This document shows, piece by piece, positions 5,032 to 36,879 of a stretch of DNA of 64,000 nucleotides. Below the pieces are notes generated by a model. That model saw nothing but the letters and a program-made list of their open reading frames with translations. It was not told the origin of the DNA and did no database searches. Both the position numbers and the translations under genes were made by a program. Each line of letters starts with the position of its first letter. Within the stretch, counting starts at the first letter, position 1. This DNA is from Pomphorhynchus laevis (Eukaryota > Acanthocephala > Palaeacanthocephala > Echinorhynchida > Pomphorhynchidae), in assembly GCA_012934845.2 (NCBI GenBank), contig WNNJ02000211.1, positions 62,001 to 126,000 of the forward strand, written 5' to 3'.

Positions 5032-6102
5032 ATGTTCTACAATACTCCAATCAGAAATCACGGTTCATCAAACAATATCTTAAAGAAACATAATCAAGTT
5101 GATGACAGAATTACCACAAAGAAAATCATTACCAATAAGTTAGTTAATAATGTAAATGAAAGTGAACAAGAAGTGTTGCCACCTAATGTTAAAATTATTT
5201 CTAGTAACATAAGTTTTTCGCATGTCACTGAACCAAATTCGATATACGACTTTAGTGATATTATTGACTCTGATGAATTGCCCGGTTTTGAGATGGACCA
5301 TCAAGCCTATTCCGACGAGATACAAAGGAAATTTCTACACAAAAGATCGTACATACTATCGACTCATGCGCCGTCCATTAGAACTTCCCGATCTAGTAAA
5401 TCTATCGATTCTACTACCTTGCCAGCGACAACGATCGCACAACGATCATCTGCCACTAGAAATTCTAGAATCTTAAACGTCGCCCCTGACAATGCACAAA
5501 ATCGAAAAGCCATTGAATCTACATCACTACAATATGTGACAGGTCCAATTCTACAACATCGTAAAAGTAGCATTACCGCAAATCAATTTATTGTCAATAA
5601 TAAGAATTTCCGTGTGACTACGGAAGAAACTACTTTGTCGGCCGCATTCCACGACAAGCAAACCAGCCATTACCAACACGATAAAAATAAAGTGAACTGC
5701 ATGTCCTTAAAAGCTCTACTTGAAAAATTTTTACCTAAGGAAGGATATATTCCGTCTAGAAAGTTTCTATTTGATTTCTTCCTGGTAATTCGACAGTATG
5801 TTATCTTAAGCGACGTGGTCATGCATTTAATAAGGTCGCTAACGAAAATATGCGACGGCAAGCATAAGATGAACAGCGGCAGCTTCAAACATGTACAAAA
5901 TCATTGCAGTAAAAACTGTTCAATGAATGTCTTCGTTCAAAGCATTATCTACCTTATGACATATTGGATTCAAACGATTCCGTATGATTTCCGTTCACCT
6001 AGCGTCATGCAGCGAACAAGAGATTTGTTTGCCCTGTGCTTAATGAAATCTCCGTTAAGCTTTGTTGACGTTAGATCTGCATTACGGATGCTATACGCTA
6101 AG
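5032..6102 (+). CDS. RasGEF1-like guanine nucleotide exchange factor, exon with N-terminal region and REM domain
   Basis: The frame begins at ATG 5032, the first after an in-frame TGA at 5017. Residues 1-223 are hydrophilic, rich in Ser, Thr and Asn, with an acidic patch (DFSDIIDSDELPGFEMD), and match nothing I recognise. Residues 224-357 form the REM (RasGEF N-terminal) domain: SLKALLEKFLPKEGY, FLFDFFLVIRQYV and WIQTIPYDFR are typical of the RASGEF1A/B/C family. RasGEF1 proteins load GTP onto Ras/Rap-type GTPases at membranes, and the REM domain buttresses the catalytic domain. The open frame runs on to 6156, but AAG|GTAAAG at 6100-6108 is a good splice donor. Ending there keeps the family reading and joins in phase to the exon at 15995. 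The N-terminal region is longer than in the vertebrate proteins. Confidence 0.85.
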
Positions 6103-6364
6103 GTAAAGCTTTTGACATTTTACAATGATTCAAAAAAAGATAGAAATCAGAAATAAATACAAATAGGATCAAAGAATTTTCATAAATTAATAAACATAAG
6201 GTCAGTTAGTTAGCAAACGTAATGTTAATGATGGAGAAATTAAAACAATTTTAACATTGACAATAAGAGAAGAATTGGAAATTAAATAAATGCTTATCAT
6301 TGTAAAAAATTACACAAAAATTTTATGTAATTAAGTAGCAATTAGATCGTGTTTAATTTAATTA

Positions 6365-8815: not shown

Positions 8816-9120
8816 AAAAGCTTTCTACAAAAGTACCAAGGATAAACAAGTTGTTTTTGGCCCAGAACTAAAAAAGAAATACATAGGATTACCATTTATA
8901 AATAATTTTTGGAATATTGGTATCAAAAGATTTGTTTCGAACAAAACATTAAATACTTCAAATACTGTTTTGTATAATAGTAAAATACCGAAGTTACACA
9001 ACATTTTGAAAAAAAAAACCAAACATGATAATGGTGTTGTTTATAAAATTTCTTGTTTAGAATGCGATAAAAATTTTGTGGGCAAAACAGGCCAACAATT
9101 AGAGCAAACATTAGTCCAAA
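8816..9120 (+). mobile_element. PLE-B fragment with GIY-YIG start, plus strand
   Basis: This stretch repeats, in inverted orientation, the C-terminal PLE-B sequence at 7640-7940. The frame 8970-9194 reads NGVVYKISCLECDKNFVGKT, the beginning of a GIY-YIG nuclease (the second tyrosine is replaced by F in NFVGKT). The similarity to the PLE stops at about 9120, where hammerhead-repeat sequence begins, so the endonuclease is truncated. Confidence 0.75.
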
Positions 9121-9775
9121 CAATACCATTCCGCGCGAATAATGTTAACAGTCGTTTAAGCCCGACGCGAATAGAAAAACGATACCAGTGTTAGATACCT
9201 TTTCGTCATCACAATGACTCATCATTACCAGATTCCTCTAACTGCTGAATGCAGAAGAGGATTAGCGGATGCCCAAAAAAGAATCATATGTATGATGTAC
9301 TAGAAAACCTCTAGTATCATCATAGAGTGCTTAACCAACACAACGACTTCACTAAATAAGATCATTAGCAAAAGCACTGGCAAATACCAACCGGTATCTT
9401 TTATATCGACTCACTTTTCTTAATTATGAATTTCTCCAAACGATACCATTCCGCGTGAATAATGTTAGCAGTCATTTAAGCCCGACGCGAAAGAAAAACG
9501 ATAATAGTATTAGATACTGTTTCGTCATCACAATGACTCATCAGTGCCAGATCCCTCACACTGCTGGATGCAGAGAAAAACTAGCAGACGGCGAAAAACT
9601 CGAATTGTGTGTATGATGTACTAGAAAATATCTAGCAACATCACAGAGTGCTTAACCAGCAGAACCACTTCACCAAATAAGATGATTAGCAAAAGCACTG
9701 GCAAATGCCAGCACATGTATCTTTTATATCGGCTCACTTTTTTAGCGGCGGGCTTAAATGACTTAAATATTTCAG
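9121..9775 (-). repeat. two head-to-tail hammerhead-repeat units (same family as 35981-36810), degenerate
   Basis: Two units of about 318 bp (about 9121-9435 and 9436-9775) share the landmarks CATTCCGCG, TTTCGTCATCACAATGACTCAT, CTAGAAAA and GCAAAAGCACTGGCAAAT. Read on the minus strand, each carries the hammerhead core found in the array at 36 kb. The units sit between the end of one PLE fragment and the N-terminal part of another. Divergence between the units suggests an old insertion. Confidence 0.75.
9514..9593 (-). ncRNA. type III hammerhead ribozyme, partly degenerate
   Basis: On the minus strand the core runs GTC (cleavage) then TGCTAG, a loop, CTGGCA, CTGATGA, GTCAT-TGTG-ATGAC and GAAA. 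Stem I keeps six pairs including one G-U, and stem II is perfect over five pairs. Stem III is weakened because the bases after GAAA read CAGT instead of CGGC. The core nucleotides are all present, so slow self-cleavage is possible. The sister unit at about 9195-9275 has lost the core (ATGATGA in place of CTGATGA). Confidence 0.75.
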
Positions 9776-10335
9776 TGTATTGTACCAAAAGACCACAAAA
9801 AAGATTCAATTAACACATATGGGATAAGCCTCTTCAAGAAAAATGTCGAGGTTAATACTACAGGTCAATACCGAGCACATCAAAATAAAATCTTAGAATC
9901 TTTGAAATTGTTGAGATCGAGAAAGGATTTAGTGTTTAGGAAAGCTGATATGGGCGGCCAAATTGTAGTGTGCAATAAAGATGAATATTTATCAGAAGGA
10001 ATAAGGCAACTTGAATCTTCACCATATGCTGATGCAACTATTGAAGAAGTAAATTTAGCGGTAAATGAACTAGACAATATTTTAGACAAGCATATTCAAC
10101 TGGGAACAATTGATATACCACTAGCAGATTCGCTTAGATCAAAAATGCGAAGTTTGGAAACTTTTACTTACTTCACAAAATGTACAAAAAATAACAACCA
10201 TTTATTAACTGATCAGCCCAAGAGTAAGTTGCTACGTAACAACAACTAGACTTCTGTCCATGCACAAACAAAAGCTACTTCAACCATTAGTAATGGATGT
10301 CAAATTGTACATACAGAGTTCAATAGAATATATAT
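9776..10335 (+). mobile_element. PLE-B N-terminal RT fragment
   Basis: The frame 9902-10249 reads LRSRKDLVFRKADMGGQIVV and then NKDEYLSEGIRQL, the N-terminal RT segment typical of canonical PLEs (usually KPADKGGAIVV and a Y..E..RQL motif). It ends in a stop at 10249 with PLE-like sequence continuing to about 10330. It is separated from the C-terminal pieces by ribozyme repeats, so this is part of a second, rearranged PLE copy. Confidence 0.75.
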
Positions 10336-10898
10336 ACGTAGCGACTTTGAATATTGCGAGAATAATTCGGTTCTATATCTTGGTCGGATAAAGATATATA
10401 GAATGCTGCCTGGTGTTTATGCCTGTTCATGAGGAAAACATGGTGATTCATTTATGAGTACACTATTGGATGTCCCAGTGTGGGTGTAACAACACATTTT
10501 ATTTTATATATTTGTACACTTTAAAGTGTCCCGGTAAAACAGCATTTCTATTAAAAGGAATTTAGTGCCTGATGCATGGTTAAACTGCAATATGCACTGC
10601 AATGCACAGAGCTTATGCTAAATTTCCTCTGGTGGTTCAGATTAAGGGTAGTTCTGTTTTTCGAGCTTTAAACACTGTTAAAGCGTGTGTTAAGGTGCCT
10701 GTGGATAATGATTGAAGTCACGGTACTGATGAGCTCCGTAAAAGCGAAACGCGTCTACCGTTGGTGAAGTTTGTCGTCACACATAGGATAACTGGGCATA
10801 CGTAGCGACTTTGAATATTGCGAGAATAATTCGGTTCTATATCTTGGTCTGATGAAGATATATAGAATGCTGCCTGGTGTTTATGCCTCTTCATGAGG

Positions 10899-10902
<4 letters not shown>
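10336..10902 (+). repeat. tandem unit of the type I hammerhead-repeat family
   Basis: A unit starts at TACGTAGCGACTTTGAATAT (10336) and starts again at 10798 in head-to-tail order, giving a period of about 462 bp. The second unit is cut at 10902 by an (AT)n tract. The same unit recurs inverted at 11386-11660 and degenerate at 62756-63240. It has no open frame. Its hammerhead lies just upstream of the repeat junction, the layout of PLE pseudo-LTRs and of animal retrozymes. Confidence 0.75.
10718..10763 (+). ncRNA. type I hammerhead ribozyme with minimal stem III
   Basis: The order is CACGGTA (stem I), CTGATGA (10726-10732), a short stem II (GCT.../...AGC), GAAA (10746-10749), CGCG, TC and then TACCGT, which closes stem I over six pairs. 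Cleavage is predicted after C10755. Stem III is only A-U plus C-G, as in the schistosome satellite and PLE hammerheads, which usually act as dimers. In the inverted copy stem II is a perfect GCTC/GAGC, which supports the fold. Confidence 0.8.

Positions 10903-10979
<77 letters not shown>
10901..10979. repeat. (AT)n microsatellite, left
   Basis: An almost pure AT dinucleotide run of about 78 bp. With the run at 11317-11388 it brackets the palindrome. It encodes an apparent IYIYIY frame that is not a gene. Confidence 0.95.
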
Positions 10980-10980
<1 letters not shown>

Positions 10981-11032
10981 AATATTATTATCAAATCGAA
11001 CTCGAGAGCCCATTGAGGCTGCTTTCAAATAA

Positions 11033-11314
11033 ATCGTTAAACAAATCAAATCAAGAATCGAGTAACAGCAGCGATTTTTCTTTTATAGCACAATACAAGA
11101 GCTAAGCTTTCGGCGTAAAAGCCTTCTTCAGAGTTGTATGTTATTTTATCTCAAACTTTTTTTAAGCTTAAAACTTTTTTTAAGCTTAAAAAAAGTTTGA
11201 GATAAAATAACATACAACTCTGAAGAAGGCTTTTACGCCGAAAGCTTAGCTCTTGTATTGTGCTATAAAAGAAAAATCGCTGCTGTTACTCGATTCTTGA
11301 TTTGATTTGTTTAA

Positions 11315-11318
<4 letters not shown>
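11033..11318. repeat. perfect palindrome, 137 bp arms, 12 bp spacer
   Basis: Arm 11033-11169 is the reverse complement of arm 11182-11318; I found no mismatch by eye. Each arm carries a CTGAAGA...GAAA motif resembling a hammerhead core and the stretch AAGTTTGAGATAAAATAACA. A 33 bp piece of the same arm recurs at 24262-24296, and a diverged palindrome with the same CTGAAGAAGGCTT core lies at 57511-57679. A perfect palindrome of this size is unstable, which argues for a recent origin or for an assembly fold-back. Confidence 0.85.
11212..11262 (+). ncRNA. hammerhead-like motif in the palindrome arm (weak)
   Basis: CTGAAGA (11219-11225) fits the CUGANGA core. It is followed by a GGC-TTTTAC-GCC hairpin, GAAA, AGC-TTA-GCT (possible stem III) and C. 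The bases after that, TTGTAT, pair with ATACAA upstream, leaving CT unpaired before the core and one extra A before stem II. These two irregularities mean it may be inactive or a look-alike. The left arm carries the same motif on the minus strand. Confidence 0.35.

Positions 11319-11388
<70 letters not shown>
11317..11388. repeat. (AT)n microsatellite, right
   Basis: A second AT dinucleotide run of about 72 bp directly follows the right palindrome arm and precedes the inverted hammerhead unit. Naiad-type PLEs are reported to favour microsatellite targets, but no Naiad sequence adjoins it here. Confidence 0.95.
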
Positions 11389-11391
<3 letters not shown>

Positions 11392-11660
11392 GTTGTTACA
11401 CCTGCCCTGGGACACTCAATGGTGTACTCATAAATAAATCACTGTTTTCCTCATGAAGAGGCATAAACACCAGGCAGCATTCTATATATCTTCATCAGAC
11501 TAAGATATAGAACCGAATTATTCTCGCAATATTCAAAGTCGCTACGTATGCCCAGTCATCCTATGTGTGACGACAAACTTCAACAACGGTAGACGCCTTT
11601 CGCTCTTACGGAGCTCATCAGTACCGTGACTTCAATAATCATCCATAATCACTTTAAATC
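11386..11660 (-). repeat. inverted unit of the type I hammerhead-repeat family
   Basis: Read on the minus strand, this is the same unit as 10700-10902, including CAGGCAGCATTCTATATATC and the hammerhead at 11584-11628. In this copy stem II is GCTC/GAGC, but the base after GAAA is G, so the short stem III is lost. Together with 10700-10902 it makes a large inverted repeat centred on the palindrome. Confidence 0.8.
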
Positions 11661-13088: not shown

Positions 13089-15548
13089 ATGCAAAGTAGT
13101 CAAGAGCCTTTTTCACTGAATATACTTCAGTGGAATTCGGGAGGTGCTTCTGCTCTTAGCCTTCTATCTGGTAGAGATGCGGATGTTATAGTCCTTCAGG
13201 AGACGCGGTCTATCCGTATCCCCCAGGACATTACTCGATTTATCCCCAAGCATATTTACACCCACTTCACTCCGTACATAACCCCTCCTCACGCCTCTTC
13301 ATCTCAAGGTCTCTTAACCCTAGTTAAATGCTCCTTAAGATCATCCCTTCTTTTAAACTATTCTTGTCCAGCCCTGTCTTGTTTAGCTGTTTCACTTTGT
13401 AAGAATGGTAAACGTATCAGCATAGCCAATATCTATATTAGGCCAGGGGAAATTCACAAGAACCGTGATCTCCTGGACCGTATCTTGGGTAGTGGCTATG
13501 ACATGTTACTCGGTGACTTCAACGACAGAACTGGTCGTTGGATTAATGCAGCACTCCGCAGAGCCAGGAACGATTACCTTATTCACAAACCACCGTCCCC
13601 AACTTTTCATTGCTCAACAACTAATTCTCTCCTCGACATATTACTGCTTCATAAGATGTGGTTGTTGAAACCCATCTGCACTGAGCAGTCGCGCCAAAAA
13701 CAGACCATCTCTCATGACCTAATTCGTTGGCGGATAGAGGAAGATACGTTGCTTAGAAGGAGGTTTCACTTTGATCCCATCAGAGTGGCTTTCTTTCAGG
13801 CGGCTATCCAACTCTTCCCCAGAATTGGTAATGAGAATTTGACCGAATTTAATTCCTTCCTCTCCTCGCAAGCTACCGCGTTTCTTTCGACTACCTATAA
13901 AGGTCATATTTACAATCCCACTCCAACAAAACTCAAGGTTTTGGCTAAAATGCTACGTCTTCCCAATGTCTCTGTTTCCGCCAGGCAGGCCATCTCGAAT
14001 GAATACTGGAGCACTAGATATAGGTTCCAGCTGAGCAGGGATAAGGCGAACATCGCTCACCTTAACCCTTCTCAGTCTTCCTTCTGGAAGATATTCAAGA
14101 AGGAGAAGTTTGTCTGTTGGAAGGATAGAGCTTTGGGTTGGATTGGTAGTATAGGCCTTGATAATGTTTTGAAGGAGTCACTATCCCTACATAATTATGG
14201 AGCCACTCAATCTCCCCAACCAATCCCGCCTTGGGGTGACTTCAGAAGCAGGGACTTATCTGTTACAGATATCCTGAACTCCTGGGGGCCACTTCCGGGC
14301 ACCTCTAAATCCGTCGCTCCACTATCTTCTCGAGTCTGTCAGCTTTTGACAGCCGATCAAAGAAGAGAAGTGGCCGTCACAATGCTTTTAGCCTCACCAT
14401 CCGATGTAGCCGGCATCAATATTAGTCGTAGAATTTTCTTACCAAAGCATAGTCCGGTTTCATGTCCCAAAGATCTGCGTCCCATTTCGATTCAAAACTC
14501 CCTCATCTCCATCTACGAAAAAGCGCTTGCGCGTAGAATCCGCGACCATTTAAGTAGGCGTAATTTGATCCCACCGAGTTTTCACGGGTTTGTCAAGGGA
14601 CGCTCGGTTCATTCAGCAATAGGTGAAGTGCATCAGTTTTGTAGGGATAATAGCCATCAACTAGCTGTGGCTGTTTTCCTTGACTTTTCTGCTGCATTTG
14701 ACCGCATTTCCATTCCCTTTGTTATCTCCTCTCTCAGGTCACTCGGGTTGCCTGCGAGAATTGTTAACAGGGTGGAGATATTACTGTTTACCAAGAGGTT
14801 CTACTATGAAGACGACCCTGATGCGTGTCAGTTCTACCCTATTACAGGTGTGCCCCAAGGATCCCCACTTTCTCCTATCTTATTTCTTGCTGCCTCCATT
14901 GTACTATTCAAGAATTTTAAACGTGATCAACATCTAGTGGTATACGCTGATGATACCACGGCCCTGTTCTCTGGACGCAGGTGCAAAGATGTCGCTTCAG
15001 ACATCAGCCGTTTCTTTTTAAGATTAACAGACCAGCTGACCCTATCCAATCTTATTTTAAATTCATCCAAATCGCAGGTAGTTGTCTTTCATGGCACCCC
15101 TGCGACAAAGAAAAAATTAAAGAGACTAGCACTCTCAGCTCTATCTTCTATATTGACTAATCAACCACTCCCTACCTTCACAAGTCGAGTAAAATACCTG
15201 GGGTTCACTGTTACGGTGAACTGGTCGGCGAAAGCTGACCTGGATAGACTTAAACGTATCCTGAAGAAAGCTAGGTGGGCCCTGAAACGGGCTCAGCATC
15301 TGTCGTTGAATGGGAAAACCCAAGTGCGCCTCTGGGGTACTTGGGCTATCTCGGGATTAGTCTTCTTTTCGAGAGGACGTCCTCCAGAGCAAAGACTAAG
15401 GTTTCTCAAGCTCCTCATCTCGCGATTACCGCGCATAGTCCGCCTAGATTGGATTCTTCGGGGGGTGATAGACCCCGGGTGGTTCAGTCGAAGAGCGGCG
15501 TGTTGGATTAGCTGGAGGGCTCAGATCCCGCTGGACCTGAGGCCGTGA
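13089..15548 (+). CDS. LINE-A ORF2, AP-type endonuclease and reverse transcriptase
   Basis: The 819-residue frame starts at ATG 13089. Residues 10-235 are an exonuclease/endonuclease/phosphatase domain: NILQWN, VLQETRS and LLGDFNDR are visible. The C-terminal catalytic motif reads SHD (residues 208-210) where the family has SDH. The RT follows: RPISIQNSLISIYEK, LDFSAAFDRI (motif A), GVPQGSPLSP (motif B), YADDTT (residues 619-624, motif C) and KYLGFTV. The protein ends in a Trp-rich segment without the zinc knuckle found at the end of R1 ORF2. The RT looks intact; the endonuclease may be altered. Codon use is more GC-rich than in the surrounding DNA. Confidence 0.87.
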   Translation: MQSSQEPFSLNILQWNSGGASALSLLSGRDADVIVLQETRSIRIPQDITRFIPKHIYTHFTPYITPPHASSSQGLLTLVKCSLRSSLLLNYSCPALSCLAVSLCKNGKRISIANIYIRPGEIHKNRDLLDRILGSGYDMLLGDFNDRTGRWINAALRRARNDYLIHKPPSPTFHCSTTNSLLDILLLHKMWLLKPICTEQSRQKQTISHDLIRWRIEEDTLLRRRFHFDPIRVAFFQAAIQLFPRIGNENLTEFNSFLSSQATAFLSTTYKGHIYNPTPTKLKVLAKMLRLPNVSVSARQAISNEYWSTRYRFQLSRDKANIAHLNPSQSSFWKIFKKEKFVCWKDRALGWIGSIGLDNVLKESLSLHNYGATQSPQPIPPWGDFRSRDLSVTDILNSWGPLPGTSKSVAPLSSRVCQLLTADQRREVAVTMLLASPSDVAGINISRRIFLPKHSPVSCPKDLRPISIQNSLISIYEKALARRIRDHLSRRNLIPPSFHGFVKGRSVHSAIGEVHQFCRDNSHQLAVAVFLDFSAAFDRISIPFVISSLRSLGLPARIVNRVEILLFTKRFYYEDDPDACQFYPITGVPQGSPLSPILFLAASIVLFKNFKRDQHLVVYADDTTALFSGRRCKDVASDISRFFLRLTDQLTLSNLILNSSKSQVVVFHGTPATKKKLKRLALSALSSILTNQPLPTFTSRVKYLGFTVTVNWSAKADLDRLKRILKKARWALKRAQHLSLNGKTQVRLWGTWAISGLVFFSRGRPPEQRLRFLKLLISRLPRIVRLDWILRGVIDPGWFSRRAACWISWRAQIPLDLRP

Positions 15549-15994: not shown

Positions 15995-16939
15995 TTGACG
16001 AGGCTTGAAGTCTTTGAAGATTATCTTGATAGGGAGAATCGGATACCTCATGTAGACATGGATTTGACTATTATGGACATTTGTCGAGATCCAGCAAGGC
16101 TGGCAGAACAACTAGTATTGCTTGAAATTGAACACTTATCGCACATAGGCCCAGAGGAATATGTGCAGTATTTAAATGCCCATCGTCGAATAAGTAGAAA
16201 GAGAAGCAGTCTGATAGATTATGGCAGCGAGGAAACCAAAAGCTTACAAATATCTTTTGATCACGTTATCAATCGATCGAGATCATATTCGATTCATATG
16301 ACAAAAGATGCTCATTCGTCACAGAAATACACATTTAACCTTGAAGCATACATTCGATGGGTAAATCGACTAAGTTATTACGTCACAACCGAAATCGTAA
16401 AACAGCGTAAGAAACGAATTCGAGCTGCTCACATTGAATACTTTATCGAAGTAGCGAAATGTTGCTTAGAACTTAATAATTTCAATTCAACCATTGGAAT
16501 TATCAGTGGACTCGATGATATCGCTGTTAAACGCCTAATTCGAACATGGGATCGTGTTTCGTATAACCATAGAACGAAGTTTCGATATTTCCAGACACTG
16601 ATGAGTGTATCAAACAATTTTGCATCATACAGAGGCGCTGTATCGAATGTGATGAAATCGGACTATAAATTCTACGTACCATTTCTGTGTGTATCTTTGA
16701 AAGATCTTTATTACATAAATGAAGTGATGCCAGACGTTGTGGAAGAGGATCAGATAAATATCGAAAAAATGGAGAAAATGGGCGCGCTTGTTTCCGAGTT
16801 AGTTAGAGTTGGCAATAATTCAGCTCAAGTAAAATTCAGAAGGCTAGATAATGTAATAAGATTTCTTTATACTTGCCCTGTGCTTGATAGTGCAACATCC
16901 ATGCAAATGTCAGTAGAATTGGAAAGTGATTCGGAATAA
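15995..16939 (+). CDS. RasGEF1-like guanine nucleotide exchange factor, catalytic-domain exon
   Basis: The exon begins right after the acceptor AAATAG (its first codon is TTG, not a start) and ends at TAA 16937-16939. It contributes 314 residues, so the joined protein is about 671 residues. The RasGEF (Cdc25) fold is recognised from LAEQLVLLEIEHLSHIGPEE, FNLEAYIRWVNRLSYYV, HIEYFIEVAKCCLELNNFNS, IISGLDD, LKDLYYINE and INIEKM, all closely parallel to RASGEF1A/B/C. A Ser/Arg-rich stretch of about 30 residues (SRKRSSLIDYGSEE onward) is inserted between the first two blocks relative to vertebrate proteins. AATAAA at 16935-16940 overlaps the stop; another lies near 17167. Confidence 0.88.
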   Translation: MTRLEVFEDYLDRENRIPHVDMDLTIMDICRDPARLAEQLVLLEIEHLSHIGPEEYVQYLNAHRRISRKRSSLIDYGSEETKSLQISFDHVINRSRSYSIHMTKDAHSSQKYTFNLEAYIRWVNRLSYYVTTEIVKQRKKRIRAAHIEYFIEVAKCCLELNNFNSTIGIISGLDDIAVKRLIRTWDRVSYNHRTKFRYFQTLMSVSNNFASYRGAVSNVMKSDYKFYVPFLCVSLKDLYYINEVMPDVVEEDQINIEKMEKMGALVSELVRVGNNSAQVKFRRLDNVIRFLYTCPVLDSATSMQMSVELESDSE

Positions 16940-24296: not shown

Positions 24297-24507
24297 TTTA
24301 AATTGTTGATTAAAGTTACTTACAATCTAAAGTAAATACAAGACAGCATTTACAACGATTACTTACAACGATTACTAAAGACAACAATCATTACTGTTGA
24401 ATATTTTGTGAAAAGGAAAAGGCAAATACTTTACAAAGAAGTTATTTCAAGAAGTTATATTATTTCAAGTCACAGACCGCGCAAGTTTGGAAATACCCGC
24501 GTCAGCT

Positions 24508-27255
24508 ATGGAATTATCGCACGACTGCAGCACACTCAAGGCGAATGGCTGTGGCCATTTGCAAGAAAATGCGAACGTAGCGGATACGAGCAGATGCCCA
24601 ATATGCATGAAGATAAATCGGCGTAAGGTCCTGATAGAATGTGATACATGTTCTACGTGGCACCACTTATCTTGTGTTGGCCTGACCAAGAAGCAAGCTG
24701 CAATAATTCCCAAGTGGGTTTGCCGCGCATGTTTGGCTCAAAATGAACAGTGCGTTGAGCCTGAGCATACAATTGGAGCTTCAACACCGGATACTCTTGC
24801 TACCGATTGTCTACATCAGGGATGGAGAAGACAATCAGGCACTGTAGTTCGTTTGCCTACACGAATACGCGGAATGGCAGCACAAATAATGTCAGATTTA
24901 ATAAAGGACGCACTTTCTTTGAATACAGAGGAGTCATGGGTACGTCTACTATTGTTCCCAAAGATATGTTTTGCAACTCATATCGAGAGGTCCTCATCAC
25001 AGCGTGCACAGCGCAATAATGCAAGTCACATGAAAGAAAGCTTGTGCTGGTACACCTCCACACCTTTGGAGCAACTTATTGCCAGTCTCGCCAAAAAAAA
25101 AACGCTTAGACGACTCTGCTCAAAATGTGCATGTCGTAAACTCAGCACAGTCTTTTTGTCAGTGTTGCAACCAACTCAGCTCGGTGTAGCAACTAAAAAC
25201 GGGGCTGATAGCATAATACACATTGTGAGAAATGAACACACTCGACGACGCGATAAGGATGACTGGGTGTGGGCTAAGGTCGATCTCAGGAATGCTTTCA
25301 ATTCTATCAGCCGACATGCCATATTCAGTGTAATTCAACGATCTGTCCCGCAATTAATGCCGTGGTTGAGATACTGCTACTCCGAGCCATCATTGCTTCG
25401 ATTCGGAAATTTGGAGCCCCTTCGATCATGCCAAGGCGTACAACAAGGAGATCCCTTAGGACCGTCTCTATTTTCATTGGCAATTCATGATTGCATCACT
25501 TCGGTTGGTTGCTTACATGGAATACATTTAAACCGCTGGTATTTGGATGACGGCATAATCGGAGGGCATCCCAGAGCAGTGGCTGATGCGCTGGCTTACC
25601 TAGAAAGAGAGTTTGCTATACTCCGTTTGGACCTTAACTGGCAAAAGACCGAGATTATAGGCTCTGCCGTAGCCTTGCAAACTTTCTCAGAGGCATGTGC
25701 ATCTCAACCAATACTTAATGAAAGTAAAAATTTTTGCTTGCTCGGCACACCTATAGGGTGCCAAGATTTCGTTAATGATCAGCTGATGAGAGTAAATTTG
25801 CCAAAATTAAGAAGTCAAATCGATTTGATAACCACCATTCCTGATACACAGGTCGCTTACTTACTACTGCGACATTGCGCCAGTGCCCCGAAAATAAACC
25901 ACCTGATGAGAACGATTGATCCTGACTATGGTAACACGTTTTACAAAAGTTTTGATGATTCGACCATTTCCGCTTTTAGCGAGATGACGTCTGTCCAGCT
26001 AAACCCTCAGATGCGAACCCAAATTACGCTTCCTTTAAGGTTGGGTGGCTTCGGGATCCGCGAAACTGTGAAGCATGCACCTTGTGCGTACATTGCCAGT
26101 GTACAAAGGGTATGTGCCGAATGGGGACTTTCTGTCAATACTTTCCCAGGACTATCTGACTTTATCGAGAGATTATCTTCACTACATGAATCACCACCAA
26201 TAATGCAATCTGACAGTCAACACAAGCTATCAATGCTCCTCGATAATAAAGTTCACGAGCAAATGCTTACGGACGTTCACCACTTCAACAGAGCTCGATT
26301 GCTGGCTGTGTCACGCCCTCACGCCAGTTCCTGGTTACGAGTGGTCCCAAATAAAGCGCTCGGAATGGACATTCCCCCTTCGCAGTTTTGCGCCTTAACT
26401 CGATTTTGGCTTGGTGCGCCTCTATTTTCACCTGGAGAGCGGTGTGAGCGATGCTTTCTCCCCGCTGATTCAGTCGGCCTACATGCGCTGACCTGCCAAT
26501 ATGGGGGTTACCCGGGACTGCGACACAACGGAATTCGCGATGTGGTCTTTCATGCCGCTCAATCTGCAGGAATGCATGTCGCTTTGGAGGTAAGGAACCT
26601 TATACCAGACCTTCGTGAACGAGCTGCAGACGTTTTGATTCTTCGGGACCCTCCTCGTGCAGTTGATTTCGATGTAACACATCCACAACAATCAGCGTAC
26701 ATAGCAAACGCATCGATAACGCCAGGCTATGCAGCGACAATGTATGCAGTCAATGTCAAGGAAAGGAAGTATAGAGCACGTATAAAGTCTGCTGGTTATC
26801 AATTTATACCGGCAGTAGTAGAGACGTATGGGGGCTGGCACGACCAAGGCGAACGCCTCATGCGATCGATAGCAAGACAGATATCCGCTACAACTGGGAT
26901 CGAATATCATAAAACGGTAGATCACCTATTCCAAAGAGCATCGTTGGCCCTCATGCGCGGAAATGCTCGGGCAATCCTAGCGTCGTTGAATGGACGCAAC
27001 CACCCACTATCTGATGCCCCACAGACGATAATGGAAACACCGAAGCGTCGTATGTTCAATACTGAACCATACAATGATATCGCTGGTATATTAACTCGAC
27101 TATCATCAGTCGAAAGCGAATCATGTGGGGTTCCGTTGCAAGCATTGGACGCGCCAACCGAATCAGCTGCAAATACGGCAAAGGAGACAAGCCAGGTAGA
27201 CGCCGGCGGGGAGGATGTGGCGAGCTTGGACACAAGCCGCTCGTGGCGGAACTGA
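24508..27255 (+). CDS. R2-type LINE protein: PHD-like finger, reverse transcriptase, restriction-like endonuclease
   Basis: The frame opens at a TTG (24487); the first ATG is 24508, giving 915 residues. Near residues 25-80 there is a PHD-like zinc finger (CPICMKINRR, CDTCSTWHHLSC, WVCRAC), which in other proteins reads chromatin. RT motifs follow: VWAKVDLRNAFNSI (motif A), GVQQGDPLGP (motif B) and RWYLDDG (residues 343-349, motif C). The C-terminal part has the zinc knuckle CERC...GLHALTC (from residue 646), RHN, then ADVLI and VDFDVTHP, the order of a PD-(D/E)XK nuclease. The RT fingers look shortened: AKKKTLRRLCSKCACRKLS lacks the usual RPIA segment, suggesting an in-frame deletion. The frame is otherwise fully open. 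Confidence 0.8.
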   Translation: MELSHDCSTLKANGCGHLQENANVADTSRCPICMKINRRKVLIECDTCSTWHHLSCVGLTKKQAAIIPKWVCRACLAQNEQCVEPEHTIGASTPDTLATDCLHQGWRRQSGTVVRLPTRIRGMAAQIMSDLIKDALSLNTEESWVRLLLFPKICFATHIERSSSQRAQRNNASHMKESLCWYTSTPLEQLIASLAKKKTLRRLCSKCACRKLSTVFLSVLQPTQLGVATKNGADSIIHIVRNEHTRRRDKDDWVWAKVDLRNAFNSISRHAIFSVIQRSVPQLMPWLRYCYSEPSLLRFGNLEPLRSCQGVQQGDPLGPSLFSLAIHDCITSVGCLHGIHLNRWYLDDGIIGGHPRAVADALAYLEREFAILRLDLNWQKTEIIGSAVALQTFSEACASQPILNESKNFCLLGTPIGCQDFVNDQLMRVNLPKLRSQIDLITTIPDTQVAYLLLRHCASAPKINHLMRTIDPDYGNTFYKSFDDSTISAFSEMTSVQLNPQMRTQITLPLRLGGFGIRETVKHAPCAYIASVQRVCAEWGLSVNTFPGLSDFIERLSSLHESPPIMQSDSQHKLSMLLDNKVHEQMLTDVHHFNRARLLAVSRPHASSWLRVVPNKALGMDIPPSQFCALTRFWLGAPLFSPGERCERCFLPADSVGLHALTCQYGGYPGLRHNGIRDVVFHAAQSAGMHVALEVRNLIPDLRERAADVLILRDPPRAVDFDVTHPQQSAYIANASITPGYAATMYAVNVKERKYRARIKSAGYQFIPAVVETYGGWHDQGERLMRSIARQISATTGIEYHKTVDHLFQRASLALMRGNARAILASLNGRNHPLSDAPQTIMETPKRRMFNTEPYNDIAGILTRLSSVESESCGVPLQALDAPTESAANTAKETSQVDAGGEDVASLDTSRSWRN

Positions 27256-35637: not shown

Positions 35638-35980
35638 CTAAACCTTGATAGTACAAACAGCTCCTATAGACAGCGGCGGCCTACCTCCGCGAAATTTCAT
35701 AATGGATGATTCATGACTTGAGAGAAATGAATGTCCCAGAATTACGCCACAGCATAAATTAATGAGATACAAAAAGCGGGCCAACTTATATACTGCTTTC
35801 TTGATAGATATATCAGCTACACAGCAGAAACGTATAGCAGATCCGTAGTCACTAGACGCCATATACACTTTATGCGTGTAGGGACATCGTCGTAACTTCA
35901 AGCGTAAAGCCACGGCAGAGTCAATTAAGTTTTTACCGCGCCCCGTATCTATCAATGCCATCACGTGACAATTATTAATG
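35638..35980 (-). pseudogene. gypsy aspartic protease
   Basis: VMALIDTGRGKNLID contains the DTG active site, followed by LGHSFLSS, the second flap-side motif of retropepsins. The N-terminal residues of the open frame (MPFRHHNDSSV) come from the inserted hammerhead repeat, not from the protease. Reading across the insertion, VRIN joins NCHVMALIDTG in frame, which shows where the insertion landed. Confidence 0.8.
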
Positions 35981-36050
35981 CCAGTCCTCCTCTGCATCCA
36001 GTAGTGGGAGGGATCTGGCACTGATGAGTCATTGTGATGACGAAACGGCA
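35979..36050 (+). ncRNA. hammerhead ribozyme, first unit, lacking its 5' stem III strand
   Basis: It begins at TGCCAG, the base after the cleavage site, and contains CTGGCA, CTGATGA (36021-36027), the GTCAT/ATGAC stem and GAAA (36042-36045). The GCCGTC that would precede it is absent because the insertion starts here. It is the expected 5' end of a cleaved transcript. Confidence 0.8.
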
Positions 36051-36275
36051 TTCGTCATTCTTTCGCGTCTGGCTTACATGTTTTACAAGAAATTCACGCG
36101 GAATGGTCTCACTCTCCTTAAATAAAAGTTAGCCGATATTAAAGAGATCTGCGCTGGCATTTGCCAGTGCTTTTGCTAATGATCCTTTTTGGTGAAGTTG
36201 TAGTACTGATTTAGTACACTATGATGTTACTAGAAAATTTTCTAGTACATCATTCACATTGATTCATTCATTGAT

Positions 36276-36353
36276 TGCCGTCTGCCAGTCCTCCTCTGCA
36301 TCCAGTAGTGGGAGGGATCTGGCACTGATGAGTCATTGTGATGACGAAACGGC
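36276..36353 (+). ncRNA. type III hammerhead ribozyme, second unit
   Basis: All elements are visible. GCCG (36276-36279) pairs with CGGC (36349-36352) for stem III; TC ends at the cleavage site, 36281. TGCCAG (36282-36287) pairs with CTGGCA (36318-36323) for stem I; CTGATGA is at 36324-36330; GTCAT-TGTG-ATGAC (36331-36344) is stem II and GAAA is at 36345-36348. Every stem is perfect and the core is consensus, so activity is likely. Confidence 0.92.
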
Positions 36354-36580
36354 ATTCGTCATTCTTTCGCGTCTAGCTTACATGTTTTACAAGAAATTCA
36401 CGCGGAATGGTCTCACTCTCCTTAAATATAAGTTAGCCGATATAAAAGAGACCTGCGCTGACATTTGCCAGTGCTTTTGCTAATGATCCTTTTTGGTGAA
36501 GCTGTAGTACTGATTTAGTACACTATGATGTTACTAGAAAATTTTCTAGTACATCATTCACATTGATTCATTCATTGATT

Positions 36581-36658
36581 GCCGTCTGCCAGTCCTCCTC
36601 TGCATCCAGTAGTGGGAGGGATCTGGCACTGATGAGTCATTGTGATGACGAAACGGCA
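36581..36658 (+). ncRNA. type III hammerhead ribozyme, third unit
   Basis: Same layout: cleavage after 36586, CTGATGA at 36629-36635, GAAA at 36650-36653, and stems I, II and III identical to the second unit. The distance between the second and third cleavage sites is 305 bp, the unit length. Confidence 0.92.
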
Positions 36659-36688
36659 TTTGTCATTCTTTCGATTCATTCATTGATT

Positions 36689-36766
36689 GCCGTCTGCCAG
36701 TCCTCCTCTGCATCCAGTAGTGGGAGGGATCTGGCACTGATGAGTCATTGCGATGACGAAACGGCA
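36689..36766 (+). ncRNA. type III hammerhead ribozyme, fourth unit
   Basis: Cleavage after 36694, CTGATGA at 36737-36743, GAAA at 36758-36761. The stem II loop is TGCG instead of TGTG; all stems are kept. It lies only 108 bp after the third site because about 197 bp of the unit are deleted between them. Confidence 0.92.
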
Positions 36767-36879
36767 TTCGTCATTCTTTCGCGTCTGGCTTACATGTTTT
36801 ACAAAAAAAATATTAATGCGTACTTGAATTTTTGCATGGGCTATATCATCGGATATTGTGGTAGATAATGAGAGCGTAG

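Follow-up and report, generated by a model that had tools for sequence, protein, structure and literature searches.

Animal non-LTR retrozymes are described as tandem repeats of about 150–450 bp with low GC content, neither LTRs nor an ORF, and a type I hammerhead ribozyme (PMC7229834). Penelope-like elements (PLEs) have been proposed as their donors (Cervera and de la Pena 2020, PMC7229834), and a 2024 review still names either LINEs or PLEs as the mover of animal retrozymes (PMC11722881). Type III hammerheads are found, in the available parts of the surveys, mostly in plants and their circular RNAs, and plant LTR retrozymes carry them in elements of about 700 nt with LTRs and a target-site duplication (TSD) of 4 bp (PMC7229834, PMC7761336). 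Atypical type III hammerheads have also been described in termite and dipteran genomes and in HDV-like RNAs, the termite copies as isolated motifs (PMC7936874), and insect elements with type III hammerheads are mentioned as work in preparation (PMC7761336); going by the accessible text of these two sources, a type III hammerhead in an animal is therefore not new per se.

The insertion chemistry of PLEs is described for two systems. A purified PLE (Poseidon of Anolis) cuts both target strands and extends them, with starts at two internal positions; the 30–40 bp tail is the segment separating these (PMC11167929). The accessible text of that study reports no start-site difference between the strands, and describes ribozyme mutants that leave insertion unchanged and an absence of reads beginning or ending at the cut. 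Penelope of the rotifer Adineta vaga has a pLTR in inverted orientation, a TSD of 9 bp and, as an option, a 31-bp tail on one inverted pLTR; its TSDs are given as 8–10 bp and as present in some copies only (PMC3846280).

The window, that is, the whole 64,000-nucleotide stretch of Pomphorhynchus laevis DNA analysed here, carries inside a gypsy element an 832-bp array (35979–36810) of 304-nt hammerhead units with TATTAATGC at both borders (Table 1). The array consists of head-to-tail units only, the unit has a GC content of 41% and no LTR, and the longest ATG ORF in a unit trimer is 33 aa, which leaves no RT or GIY-YIG endonuclease ORF. The 304-nt unit thus shows the repeat length, low GC content and absence of LTRs and ORF of the animal non-LTR retrozymes, and shares with them the hammerhead in each unit and, when a TSD is present, a length above 4 bp (9 bp here, 8–14 bp in 29 of the 55 arrays analysed below; PMC7229834). 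It departs from them in its hammerhead, which has a type III layout instead of type I, and the 3' ends across the family do not show the general poly(A) or simple-repeat tail of a LINE-mobilised SINE or pseudogene. With plant LTR retrozymes it has the type III hammerhead in common, and differs from them in lacking LTRs, in its length of about 300 nt and in its 9-bp TSD (PMC7229834, PMC7761336). A long stem I, an internal loop and an extra hairpin are shared with the atypical termite and dipteran motifs and HDV-like RNAs; unlike the isolated termite copies, the present motif is tandem and mobile (PMC7936874). The array architecture, which a sequence-only reading of this DNA had regarded as new, cannot be called so, since tandem arrays are already described for animal retrozymes (PMC7229834).

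Table 1. Features of the retrozyme array and of an older relative in the window (start sites are those of reverse transcription, RT, deduced from insert ends)
Feature	Position	Strand	Remarks
Older, diverged array of the same family	9115..9741	-	Hammerhead cores 9198-9225 and 9517-9544
Left target-site duplication TATTAATGC	35973..35981	+	TGC is also unit positions 1-3; supported by empty sites
Retrozyme unit 1, 304 nt	35979..36282	+	Starts at predicted hammerhead cut; ribozyme without its upstream strand
Possible hairpin, TTTCGCGT with ACGCGGAA	36061..36103	+	Loop contains putative RT start site 1 (unit ~110, ~36088)
Putative RT start site 2 (unit ~146)	about 36124	+	
Complete predicted type III hammerhead spanning units 1 and 2	36276..36354	+	Cut 36282/36283; sequence, core pattern, fold, pairing
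Retrozyme unit 2	36283..36586	+	98% identity to unit 1
Two further predicted hammerheads, same register	36580-36658, 36688-36766	+	Cuts 36586/36587 and 36694/36695
Short unit, 108 nt	36587..36694	+	Without unit positions 88-282; ribozyme retained, both RT start sites gone
Terminal partial unit 1-110, then run of 8 A	36695..36810	+	End is putative RT start site 1 (unit ~110)
Right target-site duplication TATTAATGC	36811..36819	+	Related gypsy copies match from 36811 onward

The borders and the restored empty site seen in the sequence-only reading are both real. Left and right flanks were searched separately in the genome, not joined, and the empty site was found in 12 of 12 related gypsy copies with both flank matches reaching it; 11 of these copies show a 9-bp overlap of the two matches and the other (C408) an 8-bp overlap. 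The array begins with TGCCAG, at the base following GCCGTC, and because the host gypsy sequence also reads TGC at the junction, this 5' end, otherwise correctly placed, is known only to within 3 nt (unit position 1–4). The gypsy host, put forward earlier as a new kind of host element, looks incidental to the insertion; what is unusual is instead the combination of the type III layout with PLE-like ends. Other parts of the window hold two LINE-type ORFs, one with an RVT_1 domain and an Exo_endo_phos match below the cut-off (13089–15548), the other with RVT_1 and a PHD finger (24487–27255), as well as pieces of a host RasGEF gene (5032–6156 and 15995–16939), the second of which has its nearest match (41%) in the acanthocephalan Neoechinorhynchus agilis.

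The ribozyme motif reads GCCGTC/TGCCAG ... CTGGCA CTGATGA GTCA..TGAC GAAA CGGC. Judged from its sequence and the energy of this fold, it has a type III layout, with stem I closed into a hairpin that carries an upper stem, a short stem II and an open stem III. A core pattern allowing up to three mismatches has six matches in the window, four in this array and two in the 9115–9741 array (0.00 expected from shuffles), and with one free base it has 963 exact matches in the 249-Mb genome; the reversed pattern, used as a control, has none there, and the exact core has none in viral_contigs. With Rfam, no match at the gathering score was obtained on the window, the hammerhead matches being weak (20.6 bits against a cut-off of 48.5). 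Furthermore, folding prediction favours another structure over the ribozyme (−39.8 versus −35.9 kcal/mol), and in this most stable fold the core is hidden.

Comparative evidence speaks for the predicted stems. Across 14 diverse copies, standard pairs fill 91% of the cells of the three stems, and five pairs show changes on both sides, a number reached in 2 of 500 shuffles; pairing falls to 32–37% when partners are slid by one or two columns and to 57–62% with three. These values apply to 14 of 22 representatives, the other eight being cut by the array end or out of register, and the 22 were picked with a pattern that itself requires partial stem I pairing. A conserved competing hairpin acting as an off-switch of the ribozyme was considered and rejected: it is energetically favoured in the main family, and its double changes do not go beyond chance in either of the two versions tested, so that the hairpin stands as a prediction only. 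Another tandem hammerhead family, with a unit of about 463 nt, the core CTGATGAGCTCCGTAANAGCGAAAC and 86 genome matches, is present in the window (10334–11657) and at one further locus (L089); in the window it occurs as copies that face each other around AT repeats and an inverted repeat with 145-nt arms.

The family was sampled genome-wide at 80 loci (L009–L088), 40 of them contigs from a similarity search that included the window array, and 40 taken in contig order among the core matches listed. They yielded 83 array clusters of at least 90 nt, the size from which clusters were counted, of which 61 share at least 91% identity with the window unit; the 22 below 91% were set aside. Dropping four flank duplicates (L026, L042, L044, L068) and two clusters at contig ends (L012, L065) left 55 young non-redundant arrays. 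The smallest arrays are partial copies, and the largest (L019) has 10 full units. The sequence-only identification of a retrozyme-like repeat with a target-site duplication is supported. Some flanks recur on different contigs (L015/L026; L039/L042/L044; L061/L068) and represent haplotypes or duplications. Units of 311 nt occur at three loci (L017, L028, L061); at L017, where they are mixed with 304-nt units, a 7-nt insertion lies at unit position 143, adjoining putative start site 2.

The 3' ends of these arrays cluster at two internal positions, separated by about 36 nt, in 51 of 55 cases: 27 at site 1 (unit positions 100–119), 24 at site 2 (138–155) and four elsewhere (51, 68, 96, 126), the two intervals, set after the data had been seen, together covering 38 of 304 positions. 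An A-run is a variable feature of one of these two sites, and the earlier interpretation of the A-run as a tail has to be abandoned. In the window array the run of eight A occupies 36803–36810, a place where units 1 and 2 read ACAAGAAA, which leaves most of the run unexplained by the unit sequence. Among the 21 of 27 site-1 ends in which our script could read the A-run, five have at least five A (L009, L013, L029, L031, L040) and 16 have fewer, and four of 16 site-1 outer ends of inverted heads begin with six T (L018, L046, L074, L077). A general poly(A) tail was likewise rejected, A-runs being exceptional and the ends sitting at unit ~110 and ~146; our guess is that the runs arose by slippage at the start site. 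Within the array, the 108-nt unit (36587–36694) holds a whole ribozyme without either start site, and could, if transcribed, give a mini-circle lacking them.

More than half of the arrays (29/55) carry an inverted copy at their 5' side. The outer ends of these inverted heads lie at site 1 in 16 arrays, at site 2 in 10 and elsewhere in three. Wherever both ends could be classified, the sites are opposite (22/22, none with one site at both ends; Fisher p 5.9e-6); 15 of these arrays have their inverted arm at site 1 and seven at site 2. The other seven of the 29 have one end outside both sites. Older inverted heads, inspected by eye, include five with opposite sites (L052, L066, L069, L078, L081), the rest being unclassifiable save two, and possible exceptions to the opposite use are L071 and an older cluster at L038, whose two arms stop at nearly the same position. 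Of the 129 variants in the inverted arms, 20 recur in the direct arm of the array concerned (mean 4.4 and maximum 12 in 2000 draws of random partners), so both arms probably derive from the same or a sister RNA. TSDs of at least 8 bp (8–14 bp) flank 29 of 55 arrays, against 5.5% in a swapped-flank control, and were not found at the other 26; they accompany 20 of 29 inverted-head and nine of 26 direct-head arrays.

The 5' ends bear directly on the ribozyme. The sequence-only reading had placed the 5' end at the predicted hammerhead cut and had proposed comparing the starts of other copies, with random starts counting against it. This proposal stands in part. Unit position 1 is the exact start of 11 of the 26 direct-headed arrays (0.09 expected, binomial p 3.6e-21), five of which have a TSD of at least 8 bp. 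The other 15 start off position 1, so that the adverse outcome is seen in part; four of them lie at 4–11, which brings the heads within 1–11 to 15 of 26, and the remainder are scattered between 34 and 273. Where the head is inverted, the inner end of the inverted arm falls within 1–11 in 13 arrays out of 29, and so does the first direct piece in 12. Inserts starting at position 1 consist of a partial unit and up to two full ones, joined in the window array by the short unit, and, as far as sequence can tell, they fit RNAs with a ribozyme-made 5' end.

The genome has at least 75 GIY-YIG matches, and one PLE family has GIY-YIG ORFs at two of the loci inspected (L090, L091); the pieces at a third (L092) read like a PLE RT and endonuclease. 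The L090 family has two alternative ends separated by 40 nt, the first of them about 50 nt downstream of a hammerhead-like core motif (CTGATGA...GAAA). Opposite ends are used in all three copies with both ends readable: in L096 and L098 the inverted arm lies at end 1 and the 3' terminus at end 2 (an AT-rich flank blurs end 1 by about 13 nt in L098), and L097 shows the reverse. Further copies end at end 2 (L099, L100) or end 1 (L101), and L091 has its inverted arm at end 1 and an unreadable 3' end. By eye, TSDs are AATTTCATAAGTAT in L096 and TGATAATAT in L097. As read from these copies, the anatomy of the family is that of published PLEs, with two internal sites, a tail and both strands extended.

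The retrozyme ends resemble these and the published PLE ends closely. The pattern of a PLE, with two sites 30–40 nt apart and the tail on one arm only, was found in the 51 of 55 3' ends and 22 of 22 opposite-site arrays given above, and in the three PLE copies. As described for Anolis Poseidon (PMC11167929) and Adineta vaga Penelope (PMC3846280), there are two internal start sites with an optional tail between them, apparent extension of both target strands, an inverted head copy and an AT-rich target; a hammerhead lies nearby as in Poseidon (PMC11167929), and TSDs are comparable to those of Penelope, including copies without any (PMC3846280). Unlike PLEs, the retrozyme has no coding capacity, and more of its inserts than expected begin at the ribozyme cut. 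These position-1 starts and the rule of opposite sites either exceed or depart from what is reported for the Anolis PLE. Comparison of the unit with three PLE/GIY-YIG stretches (L090, L092, L093) gave no convincing sequence similarity, so a common signal would be at most a loose hairpin. Such a hairpin can be drawn around start site 1 in both the retrozyme and the PLE, and one of its pairs is C-G, U-G or U-A across subfamilies; its energy in the retrozyme is no better than that of shuffles (z −0.44). An intact PLE that could act as donor was not identified in the genome.

On the question of what the template was, all 112 counted internal joints (112/112; joints with gaps above 12 nt uncounted) are free of indels, which argues against end-to-end jumping between monomers, and 243 of 265 within-array differences, inverted units left out, are private or rare, so the units were probably alike at insertion. 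Alternating linked variants are seen as ABABAB in L015 and ABAB in L021, and also in L037; this alternation could come from a dimeric circle or from later unequal exchange. Other mixed patterns of variants occur at L016, L017, L019, L023 and L040. Since L015 and L026 share flanks and differ by one unit, later exchange probably acts as well.

Taking these patterns together, we consider it likely that the repeat is a non-autonomous animal retrozyme that relies on PLE machinery to copy its RNA into new sites. Arrays would be transcribed, and the hammerhead would cut between positions 304 and 1 to give RNAs with a 5' end at position 1. A PLE RT/GIY-YIG complex would then cut both strands of an AT-rich target about 8–14 bp apart, as the duplications suggest. 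The pattern of 3' ends indicates that RT starts inside the RNA, at unit ~110 or ~146, rather than at its 3' end. Often a single RNA would template the extension of both target strands, each from a different site, with the inverted arm joined to the direct arm, and the cDNAs would often reach position 1, so that inserts begin at the ribozyme cut or the two arms meet there. For multi-unit arrays the template would be an uncleaved multimer or a circle.

The earlier proposal of insertion by RT at the target agrees with this in its essence, and loses ground as to plain LINE-type priming, since two fixed internal sites and the opposite-site rule fit PLEs. Indeed, TSDs and 5' inversions do occur with LINEs, LINE-type RT ORFs are present in the window, and a LINE protein copying from an A-rich stretch, with a second primer giving the inversions by twin priming, would find some backing in the A-runs of at least five in 5 of 21 readable site-1 3' ends and in the six T at 4 of 16 site-1 outer ends of inverted heads. 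Yet 16 of the 21 readable ends have no such run, the two fixed sites with opposite use (22/22) recur in the PLE copies of this genome, the elements whose ends were compared, and are not known as features of LINEs; we regard LINE-type mobilisation as quite unlikely. Satellite DNA spread by recombination or by reinserted DNA circles, with the ribozyme a mere passenger, would account for the tandem arrays, for the indel-free joints (112/112) and for allelic or duplicated arrays with different unit numbers (L015, L026). It is hard to reconcile with empty sites bearing a single copy of the target, with TSDs, inverted heads and dispersed partial copies (e.g. L051, L054), or with 3' ends at two positions in 51 of 55 arrays, whereas any position of the unit should serve as start or end if DNA circles were inserted, and we judge this origin very improbable.

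The remaining alternative accepts mobilisation by PLEs and attributes the enrichment of position 1 to an RT stop or a processing point apart from ribozyme cutting. The ribozyme is indeed a prediction, and its core is hidden in the most stable fold. Against this, an RT halted by a stable stem I hairpin should stop at the 3' base of that hairpin (~42) rather than at position 1. Position 1, where 11 of 26 direct heads start, is exactly the predicted cut, and inverted-arm inner ends lie within 1–11 in 13 of 29; an RT stop or processing point of this kind has, in our opinion, a small but real chance of being the explanation. Returning to a retrozyme copied by PLE machinery from self-cleaved RNA, a more specific version is quite possible, if short of probable, in which the reaction on the two strands is concerted: a PLE complex with two RT subunits would seat one RNA so that each target strand receives a different start site, and the self-cleaving ribozyme would set the end of the cDNA. 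A type III unit of the plant and viroid kind would thus be a parasite of PLEs, imitating an RNA signal downstream of the PLE's own hammerhead, and the alternating variants (ABABAB, ABAB) would reflect templates that in some cases were dimeric circles read round and round.

A literature search, outside which most subscription papers fell, returned no study reading the ends of retrozyme inserts as PLE ends and no report of a tandem type III retrozyme in an animal. The insert ends in the Pomphorhynchus laevis genome point to PLEs as the movers of a retrozyme, and the use of opposite start sites on the two strands is a rule testable with a purified PLE. Furthermore, they provide natural evidence that the cut of a hammerhead, here a predicted one, fixes the 5' end of many retrotransposed copies, and they add a tandem animal retrozyme to the settings in which a type III hammerhead layout occurs.
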